Shown: one piece after another, positions 6,132-31,689 of the stretch | How the letters are laid out: every line of letters starts with the position of its first letter | Position numbering within the stretch: the stretch's first letter is position 1 | From: Candidatus Kuenenia stuttgartensis | GTDB lineage: Bacteria; Planctomycetota; UBA11346 | Assembly: GCA_945872305.1 (NCBI GenBank) | Contig: CAMCAC010000005.1 | Span: forward strand, 1-36,019 | DNA: 36,019 nt | Direction of reading: 5' to 3' | Notes under the pieces: model-generated | The model's input: only the letters and a program-made list of their open reading frames with translations | Told to the model about the DNA's origin: nothing | The model's database searches: none | Program-made: the position numbers and the translations under genes

Positions 6132-6250
6132 TCGGCTCCGCGGCTGCACGCGCGCTCACACGTTCCTGACCAAGGCCGCGACAGCCCACCCCGCGGACAG
6201 GCGCGAGCCCCATCGATACGCGCACCACGGCGTGGTGCGCTCCGCGTGAC

Positions 6251-6523
6251 GCGCAACGCCGGGGTAGCCCGCGAAGCGGGCAGGGGCGGAGCCCCTAGAC
6301 AAGCATTGATGCACGTCGGAGACGCGTCATGCGCAACGCCGGGGTAGCCCGCGCAGCGGGCAGGGGCGAAGCCCCTGGGCACAGCGCCAGCGCGGCCGCC
6401 GAGGGGCGGTGGGCGGATACCATCGGCGAAGCCGATCCGCCCATCGTTCCCCCGCCCGGCGGGGGAACGAAGCCCCGACAAAGGCCGGGGTAGTCCGCGA
6501 AGCGGCGTAGGGGCGAAGCCCCT
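6251..6523. repeat. Intergenic cluster of three related repeats (6251-6296, 6331-6376, 6484-6523) made of paired GNA-triloop hairpins
   Basis: Direct reading: gcgcaacgccggggtagcccgcgaagcgggcaggggcggagcccct, recurring with small changes; each carries a gcccgc-GNA-gcgggc and an aggggc-GNA-gcccct type hairpin (the third copy is diverged in the first stem). Confidence 0.9.
6446..6468. other. Perfect 10-bp stem hairpin with 3-nt loop
   Basis: gttcccccgc-ccg-gcgggggaac. Confidence 0.85.
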
Positions 6524-26398: not shown

Positions 26399-27450
26399 CC
26401 CGCGACCTGCGGCCCGGACGCCGGCTGACCCCGGTGGGATGGTGGGCCCTGGCCGCGGGGACCGCCCTCGCCCTCGCCCCGTGGTGGGGCGCCCACGGCG
26501 CCCCGGCGGTGGTCGGCGCCAGCCTGCTCGGGGCCCTGGCGGTGGCCCTGGTCATGGGCCCTCGGCTCGGCCGCGGCGTCACCGCCACCTGGCAGCCCGG
26601 GGATGCGCCCCGGGCCGGCGGCGAAGGCCGGCTGCGCCTGCGCCTGGAGCCCCGGGGTGACGGGGCCCCCTGCGAGGTGTGGTGCCCGGACCCGGGCGGC
26701 GGGGTGCGCCGGGCGGCCCGGCTGGCGGGGATGGAGCGGCCCCGGCCGGTGCCGGTGGCCTTGCATTTCCCGCGCCGGGGCCGCCAGGTGCTCGCGGCAC
26801 CGCTGATCACGACCCGCCAGCCGTTCGGCTTGATCGAGCATGTGGCGGTGGCCGGGGCCCCGGCCGAGATCCTCGTCCTGCCGGCCCCCGGACGGCTGCG
26901 CGGGGATCTCGCCCAACAGCTCGCCAGCCACCTCGCCACCCGGGCCGCCGAGGGCGGCGCCGACGACGAGCCGGACCGGCTGCGCCCGTACCAGCCCGGG
27001 GATCCGCCCCGGTCGGTCCATTGGCGGGCCTCGGCCCGGGCCGGGACGCTGCTCGTCTGCCAGCGCCGGGGCGGCGCCGGGCGCATCTGCCAGGTGCGGG
27101 TCGATGCCACCCCGCCCCCGGGCGGCGATCCCGAAGGCCGCCGCCATGACCGGCTGTGCGCCGCCGCCGCGGCGGTGGTCGAGCATCTCGCCGCCGACGG
27201 CTGGAGCGTGCATCTGGCGGGACCGGGACTGCACCCGTGCAGCGGCGATCCGCGCCGGCTCCTGGCCAGCCTGGCCCTGGCCGAGGCGGTGCCCGGCGAT
27301 GCATTGGTCGGGGCCGGGCCCGGGACCATCCTCCTCGCCCACCGACCGCCGGCGGAGGTACCCCCGGGGATCCTGGCCCTGGCCGGGGAGCCCCTGTTCA
27401 CCGCGGTCAGCTTCGCGCCCCGGGCCGCAGTCCGGCGGGGGCGGCGATGA
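26395..27450 (+). CDS. DUF58 domain-containing protein
   Basis: DEPDRLRPYQPGDPPRSVHWRASARAGTLLVCQ signature; overlaps MoxR stop by 4 nt. Confidence 0.9.
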   Translation: MTRDLRPGRRLTPVGWWALAAGTALALAPWWGAHGAPAVVGASLLGALAVALVMGPRLGRGVTATWQPGDAPRAGGEGRLRLRLEPRGDGAPCEVWCPDPGGGVRRAARLAGMERPRPVPVALHFPRRGRQVLAAPLITTRQPFGLIEHVAVAGAPAEILVLPAPGRLRGDLAQQLASHLATRAAEGGADDEPDRLRPYQPGDPPRSVHWRASARAGTLLVCQRRGGAGRICQVRVDATPPPGGDPEGRRHDRLCAAAAAVVEHLAADGWSVHLAGPGLHPCSGDPRRLLASLALAEAVPGDALVGAGPGTILLAHRPPAEVPPGILALAGEPLFTAVSFAPRAAVRRGRR

Positions 27451-29432
27451 GCAGCCCATGGCTGCGAGGGGGAGCGCCGGAGGCGCGGTCCGGGGGCCAA
27501 GCCCCCGGAGGGTCAACGAGCAGCTCCTGGCTGCGAGGGGGAGCGCCGGAGGCGGGATGGGGCGTTGGAAAGTGGACCTTCCCGGCCGCCGGCACCGCGC
27601 TGCTCCTCGGGGCGGCCGGGACCCTGGCCCTGGCCCATCCCGCCGAGACGCCCTGGTTGGTAGGCATGGCCCTGGTGGGCGGCGCCGCCGGGTGGCTGGC
27701 TCCCGCCGGTGGCTGGCGGCTGGTAGCGTTGTTCCTCGGTCTCGGGGCGCCGATCCTGGCGTTCCGTTGGCCCCTGGGCGATGCGGCCCTGCCCTGGCTG
27801 GGCATGGTCCTGGCCCTGGCCATCGCCGTGCCGGTGCGGGCGGGCAGCGTACATTATCTCGCCGCCTGGGCCGCCCTGGTGGCCATCGCGGTGGCCATCC
27901 GGGTGCCCGCGGCGGCCCTCCCGGTGGCGATGACCGCCGCGGTGGTGGCGGTGGCCGCCATGGCTGTGGATGCCCGTCTCGGGGCCGTGCGCGGCGCCCA
28001 GGGCCCGGCCCGGGGCCGCTGGCTGCTCATCGGCCTGACCTTGGCGGCCCTCGCCCCCGGCCTGGTCCCGGCGGCGGCGGGCGCCCCCCTCCTCGGACCG
28101 GCGGAGCCGCGGAACCGCCCGGCCCGGGCGGACCGGCCGCGCTCCGCCACCGCCGCCGGCCTCGATGAGCGTCTGGAGATCGGCCTGGGCGGCGATGTCA
28201 GCCAGGACCCCCAGCCCGCCGCCCGCCTGCAATGGGATCCCGCCCAACCCCCCGCCGACGCCCCGGGCGAGGGCATGCACTACCTGCGGGCCCGGGCATT
28301 TTCGCGTCTGATCATCGACGGCGGGCTGCTCCGCTGGGCATCCCTGCCCGGCAGTACGCCCGTGGTGGTGGATGGCCCCGCGGATGGCCCGTGGAGCGTG
28401 GTCCGGCGGACCGGCGGCGGCGACGTGGTGCTCCTGCCCGACGGCTCCGTGCCCCGGGGTCTCGACGGGCTGCTGCGCGACGGCGACGACGCCTGGTTCC
28501 GGCCCGGGATCGGACGGTCGATCCGCACCTACATGGCCTCGCCGGTGGAACCCCTGCCCGCCTCGCCCGAAGCGGTGGCCGCCGCCCGCCAGCTCCCGCC
28601 GGCGCTGGATGGCCTGCCCTGGTCCACCATCGAGGATCCGGTGTGGTCGACCCGCCGGCCCCGGATCGCGGCGGCGGAGATCGCATTCCGCCTCGCGGAG
28701 CGGGCGGTGTACCGCACCACCGGCCTGCCGGAATCCGACGCCACCCCCGCCGACGGCCTGCGCCGCTTCCTGTTCGGCACCGCGGCGGAGCGCATCGGCC
28801 ATTGCCAGTATTTCGCCACCGCCGCTGCGGTGCTCCTGCGCCGGGCGGGCCACCCGGCCCGGTGCGTGGTCGGCTACGCCAGCGACGAAACGGATCCGGG
28901 CACCGTGGTCTTCCGCGGTTGGCACGCCCACGCCTGGATCGAGGTCGCCGAGGACGGCCGCTGGTGGCGCATGGATCCCACCCCACCGGGCCCCCGCCGG
29001 GACGGCATCGACCGCATCCGCGAGAATCCTGAGGTGGATGAGGACGAGAAACCCCTCACCGAGTCCGCCACCGCCGCCGCATCCGCCACCGGCTGGCCCC
29101 CCGCCCCGGGGACCGTCCTCGCCGCCCTGGCCCTGGCCGCCGGGCTGGCCCTGGCCGCCGGCTGGCTGTGGCGCCGCCGCCCCGTGGACGCCGCGACCAA
29201 GGCCGCCCGCCAGGGCGCCGGCCTGCTCCGTCTCGCCGCGGAAGCCGGCATCCGGGTCCGCGCCGGCACCAGCGTCGACGCCGTCGCCGCGGAACTCGCC
29301 CGCCGCACCGGCCTGGACCTGGACCGCCACCGGGCCGCCCACCTTGCCGCCCGCTTCGGCGCCGGCGCCCCGCCGCCGCCCTGGCCCCTGGGGGAATTGC
29401 GGCGACGGCTGCGGTCCCGGCCGCCGGATTGA
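27447..29432 (+). CDS. Transglutaminase-like membrane protein (TgpA/DUF3488 type)
   Basis: Multiple TM helices; catalytic C-H-D: GHCQYFATAAAVLLRRAGHPARCVVGY, GWHAHAWIEV, WWRMDPTPP; ATGA overlap with DUF58 gene. Confidence 0.9.
   Translation: MSSPWLRGGAPEARSGGQAPGGSTSSSWLRGGAPEAGWGVGKWTFPAAGTALLLGAAGTLALAHPAETPWLVGMALVGGAAGWLAPAGGWRLVALFLGLGAPILAFRWPLGDAALPWLGMVLALAIAVPVRAGSVHYLAAWAALVAIAVAIRVPAAALPVAMTAAVVAVAAMAVDARLGAVRGAQGPARGRWLLIGLTLAALAPGLVPAAAGAPLLGPAEPRNRPARADRPRSATAAGLDERLEIGLGGDVSQDPQPAARLQWDPAQPPADAPGEGMHYLRARAFSRLIIDGGLLRWASLPGSTPVVVDGPADGPWSVVRRTGGGDVVLLPDGSVPRGLDGLLRDGDDAWFRPGIGRSIRTYMASPVEPLPASPEAVAAARQLPPALDGLPWSTIEDPVWSTRRPRIAAAEIAFRLAERAVYRTTGLPESDATPADGLRRFLFGTAAERIGHCQYFATAAAVLLRRAGHPARCVVGYASDETDPGTVVFRGWHAHAWIEVAEDGRWWRMDPTPPGPRRDGIDRIRENPEVDEDEKPLTESATAAASATGWPPAPGTVLAALALAAGLALAAGWLWRRRPVDAATKAARQGAGLLRLAAEAGIRVRAGTSVDAVAAELARRTGLDLDRHRAAHLAARFGAGAPPPPWPLGELRRRLRSRPPD
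27450..27554 (+). repeat. Two 36-nt direct repeats (27450-27485, 27519-27554) flanking an 8-bp stem hairpin (27490-27508), inside the transglutaminase CDS N-terminus
   Basis: agcagcccatggctgcgagggggagcgccggaggcg versus agcagctcctggctgcgagggggagcgccggaggcg (34/36 identical); hairpin ccgggggc-caa-gcccccgg. Confidence 0.9.
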
Positions 29433-29436
29433 CCGG

Positions 29437-29864
29437 CCGGTTGGAAACCGGCGGTCCCGGGGGGCATTCACCGGTAACGCATGGGCGACCGACGCCTGGG
29501 ACCGCCGGTTTTCAACCGGCAGGCATGTCCCCCGGCCGATTGGAAACCGGCGGTCCCGGGGGGGCATACACCGGTAACCAGGTGCGATGCGGGCAACGGC
29601 CACCTGGGACCGCCGGTTTTCAACCGGCAAGGCTGCCGTTCGGGCCGGTTGGAAACCGGCGGTCCCGGGGGGCATTCACCGGTGACGCATAGGCGACCTG
29701 CCTGGGACCGCCGGTTTTCAACCGGCAGGCATGTCCCCCGGCCGGTTGGAAACCGGCGGTCCCGGGGGGCATTCACCGGTGATGCATGGGCGACCGGTGC
29801 CTGGGACCGCCGGTTTTCAACCGGCAAGTCGTCCCGTGGGCCGGTTGGAAACCGGCGGTCCCGG
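29437..29864. repeat. Tandem array (~99-bp period, ~4.3 units) of alternating inverted repeats (5 forward, 4 reverse)
   Basis: Forward ccggttggaaaccggcggtcccgg at 29437, 29536 (1 mismatch), 29645, 29742, 29841; reverse ctgggaccgccggttttcaaccggc at 29496, 29604, 29702, 29801. Confidence 0.95.
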
Positions 29865-29913: not shown

Positions 29914-31689
29914 ATGCCGTTCATCACCGTCGAGGATCTGCACAAGGCGTATGGCGGGCGGGCCGTGCTCGACGGGGCCGAGCTGGTGGTCGAGGCCCGG
30001 GACCGCATCGCGGTGATCGGGCGCAACGGGGCGGGGAAGTCGACCCTGTGCCGGATCATCCTCGGCTTCGAGGAATACGACGCCGGGCGGATCACCTTTG
30101 CCAAGGGGGCACGGATCGGCTTCCTGCGCCAGGACGATCCGTTCCTGGAGGGCGAGACGGGCCTCGGCTACCTGGAGCGGGCCGGGGGCCGGCCGGAGTG
30201 GGACTGCGCGCGCATGGCGGCCCGGTTCCGGGTGTCGAACGAGCAGCTCGCCCAGCCGGCGCTGCTCCTGCCCGGCGGCGTGCAGACCCGCCTGCGCCTG
30301 GCGTCGATGCTGCTCACGGACCCGGACTTCCTGGTGCTGGATGAGCCGACCAACCACCTCGACCTGCGCACCCTCGTCCTGCTCGAACGGTTTTTGCAGG
30401 ATTTCCGCGGGGGCTGGATGGTGGTCAGCCACGACCGGGCGTTCCTGGAGCGGACCTGCACCCAGACGGTGGAGGTCGAGCATGGGCGCTGCGAGCGCTT
30501 CCCCGGCACGGTGTCCGCATCGCTCGCCGCCAAGGCGGAGCGCCGGGAGCAGATCACCCGCACCAACGCCGCGCTGGAAACCAAGCTGCGCGACCTGGAG
30601 GACTTCGTCGCCCGCAACAAGGCCCGGGCGAGCACCGCGAGCCGGGCCCAGTCGAAGCAGAAGGAATTGGACAAACTTGCCGACCAGCGCATCGCCGTGG
30701 CCGCCCCGGAGCCGCCGCCGGTGGTGCGCTTCCCGCGCCTGGACCTCCCGGCCGGATGGGCGATCCGCGCCGAGGGGCTGGCGGTGGGCTACGGGACCAA
30801 GCTGGTGGCCAAGGGTCTCGACCTGGATCTCGACCGGGGCACCCGGCTGGCGGTGGTCGGTGACAACGGTCAGGGAAAGTCCACGCTGCTCAACACCATC
30901 GCCGGAACGCTGGCGCCCCTGGCGGGCGGGGTTCGCTGGTCCGCCAACATGCGCCTGGGCCACTATGCCCAGCACGTGTACCAGGCCCTGCCCGGCCATC
31001 TCACGGTGAAGGGCTGGCTCGACCAGTGCGCCCGCACCAGTCCCGGGCCGACCATCCCGACCCAGGAGATCCTCGACCTCGCCGGGGCCTTCCTGTTCCG
31101 CGGCGACGATGTGGACAAGTCGATCAAGGTCCTGTCCGGCGGCGAGCGCGGCCGCCTGACCCTGGCCGGGCTGATCCTCCAACGGGTGCCGGCGCTGCTC
31201 CTCGACGAGCCGACCAACCACCTGGATGTGGAAAGCGTGGACGCCCTCGCGGATGCCCTGGTGGGCTGGCCGGGCACCGTGGTCTTCGTCACCCACGACC
31301 GCGGCTTCGCCGAGCGCGTCTCGACCCACGTGGTCGAGGTCCGCGACGGGCGCATGGCCCGCTTCCCCGGCTCCTACACCGACTACGTCGCCACCCTGGA
31401 AGGCGAAGCCCGGGAGGCCCAGCCCGCCCCGGAGCCGGCCAAGAAGGGCGGCACGGCGGCGATCGCCAAGCCCACCGGGAATGGGAATGGGGAGCGCCGG
31501 GCCCTGGAACGGGAATGGAAGGCCGCCGAACGGCGGGTGCAGGATCTGGAGCGTGAGCAGGCGGCGCTGATCGCGACCCTGGATGAAGGCTACGACGAAG
31601 CCGCCGCCCAGCGCCTGGCGGATCTCGGCAGCGAACTGGCCGAGGCCGAGGAACGGTGGCTCGATCTGGGGGCCAAGGTCGAGGGCTGA
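29914..31689 (+). CDS. ABC-F family ATP-binding cassette protein (Uup-like, with C-terminal coiled coil)
   Basis: Two ABC domains (VIGRNGAGKSTLCRIILGF; VVGDNGQGKSTLLNTIAG), LLDEPTNHLD twice, LSGGERGRLTLAGL, C-terminal coiled coil EREWKAAERRVQDLEREQAAL. Confidence 0.95.
   Translation: MPFITVEDLHKAYGGRAVLDGAELVVEARDRIAVIGRNGAGKSTLCRIILGFEEYDAGRITFAKGARIGFLRQDDPFLEGETGLGYLERAGGRPEWDCARMAARFRVSNEQLAQPALLLPGGVQTRLRLASMLLTDPDFLVLDEPTNHLDLRTLVLLERFLQDFRGGWMVVSHDRAFLERTCTQTVEVEHGRCERFPGTVSASLAAKAERREQITRTNAALETKLRDLEDFVARNKARASTASRAQSKQKELDKLADQRIAVAAPEPPPVVRFPRLDLPAGWAIRAEGLAVGYGTKLVAKGLDLDLDRGTRLAVVGDNGQGKSTLLNTIAGTLAPLAGGVRWSANMRLGHYAQHVYQALPGHLTVKGWLDQCARTSPGPTIPTQEILDLAGAFLFRGDDVDKSIKVLSGGERGRLTLAGLILQRVPALLLDEPTNHLDVESVDALADALVGWPGTVVFVTHDRGFAERVSTHVVEVRDGRMARFPGSYTDYVATLEGEAREAQPAPEPAKKGGTAAIAKPTGNGNGERRALEREWKAAERRVQDLEREQAALIATLDEGYDEAAAQRLADLGSELAEAEERWLDLGAKVEG

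Follow-up and report, generated by a model that had tools for sequence, protein, structure and literature searches.

Organization of the array and its adjacent genes

The window, as we call the whole stretch of 36,019 nucleotides that was analysed, corresponds to the whole of contig C5 of an assembly of 2.92 Mb, which is distributed in 275 contigs and is 79% complete. It contains a repeat array located between a gene encoding a transglutaminase-like protein (27156..29432, + strand; PF01841, 60.3 bits), whose stop codon is 3 bases before the array, and a gene encoding an ABC-F type ATPase (29914..31689, + strand; ABC_tran and ABC_tran_Xtn). The array occupies positions 29436-29864, which are 429 of the 481 bases of the gap between the upstream stop and the ABC-F start at 29914. 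An Rfam scan of the window showed no match.

The array contains nine palindromic units of 23 nt, five forward and four reverse, arranged as four inverted pairs and one odd unit. On its own head strand, each unit is GGGACC-GCCGGTT-TNC-AACCGGC, where the N of the loop distinguishes forward units (C) from reverse units (T). The unpaired forward unit stands at the 5' end of the array (unit 1, 29436..29460, - strand) and shows a CC head and a TCC loop. In the four pairs, the left arm is always a reverse copy on the + strand, with a CT head and a TTC loop, and the right arm is always a forward copy on the - strand, with a CC head and a TCC loop: REPIN 1 contains units 2 (29496..29520) and 3 (29535..29559), REPIN 2 contains units 4 (29604..29628) and 5 (29644..29668), REPIN 3 contains units 6 (29702..29726) and 7 (29741..29765), and REPIN 4 contains units 8 (29801..29825) and 9 (29840..29864). 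The pairs are heads-outward (foot-to-foot), with linkers of 14-15 nt, and each of the four folds as one long hairpin of -28 to -33 kcal/mol, with no shuffled sequence as stable (folding z -6.5 to -8).

Most of this anatomy agrees with the original prediction. The five forward starts (29437, 29536, 29645, 29742 and 29841), the four reverse copies (29498, 29606, 29704 and 29803) and the GGA and GAA loops of forward and reverse copies are exactly where and what it had described; the period of ~99 bp corresponds to measured spacings of 99, 109, 97 and 99, and the long stem between neighbouring forward and reverse units, predicted at ~22 bp, reaches about 24 bp in the fold. The forward copies, presented as uniform, are so in all but the second, which has one stem mismatch (CCGATT). 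The linker ggggcattcaccggtnacgcatgggcgacc, presented as conserved, is found in three of the four spacers, and the spacer after 29536 departs from it past 'accggtaacc'. The window also shows composite palindromes (GCCCGCGAAGCGGGC + GGGGCGAAGCCCC) at 6267 and 6347, within 6202-6516, which had been linked to the array through their GNA loop. This link is not supported: these palindromes have another stem and no GGGACC head, and the composite is present twice, in the window only, with no third site in the genome when one mismatch is allowed.

Distribution of the repeat families in the genome

Genome-wide counts were obtained from pattern searches and sequence stretches. With up to two mismatches, the unit pattern has 53 matches in the genome (26+27), on about 20 contigs, and the reversed control pattern has 0, so the copies are not due to chance. 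A wider search with GGGACCGCC-N11-GGC gives 109 matches versus 35 for its reversed control, and almost all the palindromic ones belong to two sister families, A and B. Family A, GGTT-TNC-AACC, is the type of the window array; family B is GAGC-ANN-GCTC, with 57 copies in the loci sampled. A third family, C, comprises GGGATC-GCCGAGT-TGC-ACTCGGC and its variants, with 18 copies. What distinguishes the three families is the upper stem, where both sides have changed together; the head and the GCC/GGC stem base are common to all.

Copies of the unit are found at many unrelated loci, also as single units and in either orientation, and their linkers are often different. Families A and B together form 34 heads-outward inverted pairs in the genome. 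Their copies are intergenic in 84 of 111 cases, although ~76% of the sampled loci is called coding, and this number is a minimum because the gene caller, which is crude, extends starts too far. Some REPIN linker types recur: GTTCGGG on contigs C5, C33, C127 and C160, and AGGTGGG on C34 and C122. Both the end of C127 and the start of C160 (L044 and L047) are occupied by a family-A array of one and the same REPIN type; the assembly is probably broken within it, which makes the copy number a lower bound. The units are short multicopy palindromes, mostly extragenic, and they show the inverted pairs and the clusters of alternating orientation by which BIMEs and REPINs are defined. The canonical GT[AG]G is not present 5' of the hairpin, where the head is CTGGGACC or CCGGGACC.

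RAYT genes in the genome

One complete RAYT gene (P0001) was found, on contig C29. The encoded protein shows the REP-associated profile, matching the REP-associated tyrosine transposase model NF047646 with 83.1 bits (cut-off 80), as well as the HUH motif NHVH, within NHVHVLI, and the Tyr motif, within YIMDNPVKAGL; its match to the E. coli TnpA_REP (PDB 4er8) is weak (E 0.0022). On both sides the gene is flanked by inverted family-B hairpins, GGGACC-GCCGAGC-NNN-GCTCGGC. It lies within an open frame of 638 aa (L034:2143-4059, G000:C29). This open frame crosses three REP units and, still in frame, enters a MoeA gene (MoeA_N 118.7 bits, MoCF_biosynth 101 bits); upstream it adjoins a MoaC-like frame. 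Several RAYTs of relatives are also inside very long open frames.

A second RAYT, of which the N-terminus is present, is cut by a contig end (G000:C19:1-300, L113). This fragment is 63% identical to P0001 over 27 residues and has an inverted family-C pair upstream. When the 79%-complete assembly was searched with the RAYT of G006, a genome of another genus in the same taxonomic family, it gave only the RAYT of family B, the fragment on C19 and, on C58, a weak match (E 0.07), and no family-A RAYT was found. In this assembly the RAYT flanks include only families B (C29) and C (C19), and the exact window unit is located beside a RAYT in G006.

Unit copies and RAYT genes in relatives

Copies of the unit are present in five other genomes of the taxonomic family, each from a different genus (97, 22, 8, 3 and 3 copies), and the exact CT-headed form was found in four of 392 genomes of the phylum, all of them within the taxonomic family of the window genome. 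G006 contains 22-26 copies of unit A and, on its contig C483, a RAYT-like gene (NF047646, 88.8 bits). Directly upstream of this gene are ctgggaccGCCGGTTtccAACCGGC and GCCGGTTgaaAACCGGCggtcccag, which are the exact window unit as an inverted pair. The conserved part of the G006 RAYT (170 residues) is open, and since it has no clear start codon and shows TGA codons at both ends, this family-A cognate RAYT may be decaying. The RAYT of G016 is 57% identical to that of G006 and has GGGAGC-GCCGGTT adjoining.

RAYT homologues were found in 57 of 98 relatives. Among the 33 RAYT loci of the taxonomic family, perfect hairpins of 7 bp or more are present within 300 bp at 31, and a GGGA head at 20; none of the 14 transglutaminase loci used as control shows such a hairpin. 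In the RAYT tree, closely related RAYTs have the same stems, GCGCGCC in L115 and L116 and AGGCGAGC in L126, L127 and L129, so RAYT and REP diverge together, as expected for a RAYT and its cognate REP. The array is absent at the orthologous transglutaminase genes of relatives, in seven forward-oriented loci, and the gene order around it, including the ABC-F neighbour, is not conserved.

Variation of the loop

The first loop base is invariant, T in 54 of 54 units of family A and A in 57 of 57 units of family B. The second base is variable in both families and the third in family B only. G014 shows TTC, TGC and TCC loops and a few TGT and TTT. TTC units pair with TCC units only (13 TCC/TTC pairs, six TCC/TCC and no TTC/TTC). 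In the REP of Stenotrophomonas maltophilia, the first loop base was shown experimentally to be essential, and the other two are not selected (PMC8266576). Since only that base is needed there, a difference between forward and reverse loops at the middle base is expected to be neutral; as this base also varies in relatives, the one-base difference in the window array is tolerated variation and not a code.

Origin and possible roles of the array

The array is very probably a REPIN cluster, made of non-autonomous elements spread by a RAYT, that is, a TnpA_REP-type HUH/Tyr transposase. Under this explanation, DNA in single-stranded form, for example the lagging-strand template, would give the RAYT access to the REP. 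Recognition by the transposase would depend on the GGGACC head and, within the hairpin, on the GCC/GGC stem base, on the upper stem specific to each family and on the first base of the loop; the cut would be made at a nearby CT dinucleotide, after which the REPIN would be copied or moved to other intergenic sites. Local duplication of a REPIN with its spacer, shown by the ~99-bp period with conserved linkers, would have given the tandem array. The original prediction had tied the array to the REP/BIME arrays mobilised by RAYTs, and this is supported by the dispersed copies, the RAYT genes of the genome, the sister units that flank a RAYT and the identical unit beside a RAYT of a related genus; a unique array with no transposase of this type and no related copies is contradicted on all points. 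The observations that carry the explanation are the repeat anatomy, the copy number, the intergenic bias, the association of RAYTs with the REP design and the identical REP in the related genus. Against it are the lack, in the own assembly, of a RAYT flanked by the exact unit, its complete RAYT being associated with sister family B, the possible decay of the G006 cognate, and a head other than GT[AG]G, the classical REP signature. The cognate family-A RAYT may be within the ~21% of the genome that is unassembled, or may have been lost.

The units could also be kept at this site mainly for a role in the host, either as transcribed hairpins that terminate or protect the transglutaminase mRNA or as sites on the DNA for gyrase or nucleoid proteins, with the RAYT accounting for their origin only. 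The position of the array, right after a stop codon and ahead of a co-oriented gene, and the strong folding of the pairs are in favour of such a role, and for the REPs of E. coli, gyrase binding, mRNA stabilisation and termination have been reported (PMC6006769). However, the copies are dispersed over many unrelated loci, some as single units, and in both orientations, the relatives have no array at the seven orthologous loci, and no T-run terminator follows the units in the sequence. We consider a host role as the main reason for their maintenance possible and rather unlikely; it is compatible with spread by a RAYT, and the two explanations are not mutually exclusive.

Two other origins are far less probable. 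A derivation of the units, as ends or remnants, from an ordinary IS200/IS605 insertion sequence that moves whole is very improbable: the genome does contain an IS200-type transposase gene (contig C1; NF033573, 64.2 bits), but its flanks are unrelated palindromes, it is a RAYT gene that has the GGGACC design on its flanks, copies of the unit occur without a gene between them, and no complete IS copies bounded by the window unit were seen. The C1 gene (L033:1450-2700) was rejected as source of the units on account of these other palindromes, which are inverted GAGCCCTGAAGGGGC and CCCAGGGCAACGCCCTGGG flanks; a tandem repeat of ~61 bp is located upstream of it. Still less credible, and almost negligible, is an origin as a minisatellite, in which an accidental palindrome was merely duplicated in tandem at this site with no transposase. 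It would agree with the period of the array and its conserved linkers, but not with 53 copies on about 20 contigs, often single or with other linkers, nor with copies in five other genera and a unit that adjoins a RAYT in G006.

Comparison with known RAYT-REP systems

RAYT-driven REP and REPIN populations are best known from gammaproteobacteria. The explanation of the array as a RAYT-spread REPIN cluster extends them to a family of uncultured Planctomycetota, in which many RAYT genes have a hairpin of their own and the CTGGGANC head is common to them. Like the REPINs and BIMEs of Pseudomonas and E. coli (PMC3116915, PMC2817692), the repeats are short intergenic hairpins in inverted pairs, with tens to hundreds of copies, clusters of alternating orientation, sister REP types in one genome and a RAYT flanked by REPs. 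They differ in the head, CTGGGA[C/G/T]C and not GT[AG]G, in the perfect stem of 7 bp with a loop of 3 nt and no bulge, and in the host, a family of Planctomycetota. The REPtron Sm of S. maltophilia, with a group 3 / subclass 2.5 TnpA_REP (PMC8266576), also has a REP of 23 nt whose stem is short and perfect and whose loop is 3 nt long, and its essential first loop base matches the invariant first base found here. CT is the cleavage dinucleotide there and a putative cleavage site here; that system has a GTAG head and a stem of 8 bp, whereas the window family is known from sequence.

GT[AG]G and CGTC heads are known from REPs of numerous phyla, Planctomycetes among them (PMC3733652). Feet of atypical sequence have been reported for other RAYT-like genes, CnGA for class 3 TnpA_Y1 (Planctomycetes and Acidobacteria) and GGGGWSAS for TIRYTs (PMC6006769, PMC3733652). 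TIRtrons with their TIRYTs and class 3 TnpA_Y1 are similar to the present case in that non-GTAG repeats flank RAYT-like genes, also in Planctomycetes (PMC3733652, PMC6006769), and differ in the motif, CTGGGANC in the present case, and in that the protein here matches the REP-associated model and not IS200. This head was not found in the running text of the literature searched, and its novelty is not established. The window family works like a REPIN population, full membership in the classical GTAG REPs failing on the head; it is a repeat of a known kind that forms a new lineage, and its mechanism is ordinary, not new. Its interest is in the series of RAYT/REP pairs within one taxonomic family, a natural series for the choice of REP by RAYT in which the head is constant and the upper stem and first loop base change, and in the asymmetry of the heads.

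Asymmetry of the heads

In G014, G006 and G013, CT is directly before GGGACC in nearly all the copies sampled, and CT is the dinucleotide cleaved by the TnpA_REP of both E. coli and S. maltophilia (PMC8266576). In the own genome, a CT head is combined with a CC head in 15 of the 17 clean heads-outward pairs (p 0.0003, with copies taken as independent). Because array members are copies of each other, only the figure per locus is fair (seven of eight, p 0.025), and it is suggestive only. It is improbable, though consistent with this asymmetry, that the REPIN has turned directional, with a CT head that can be cut and a CC head that cannot, so that cutting by the RAYT would be confined to one strand at a single end. 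A directional REPIN of this kind would have left and right ends, as IS200/IS605 elements do.
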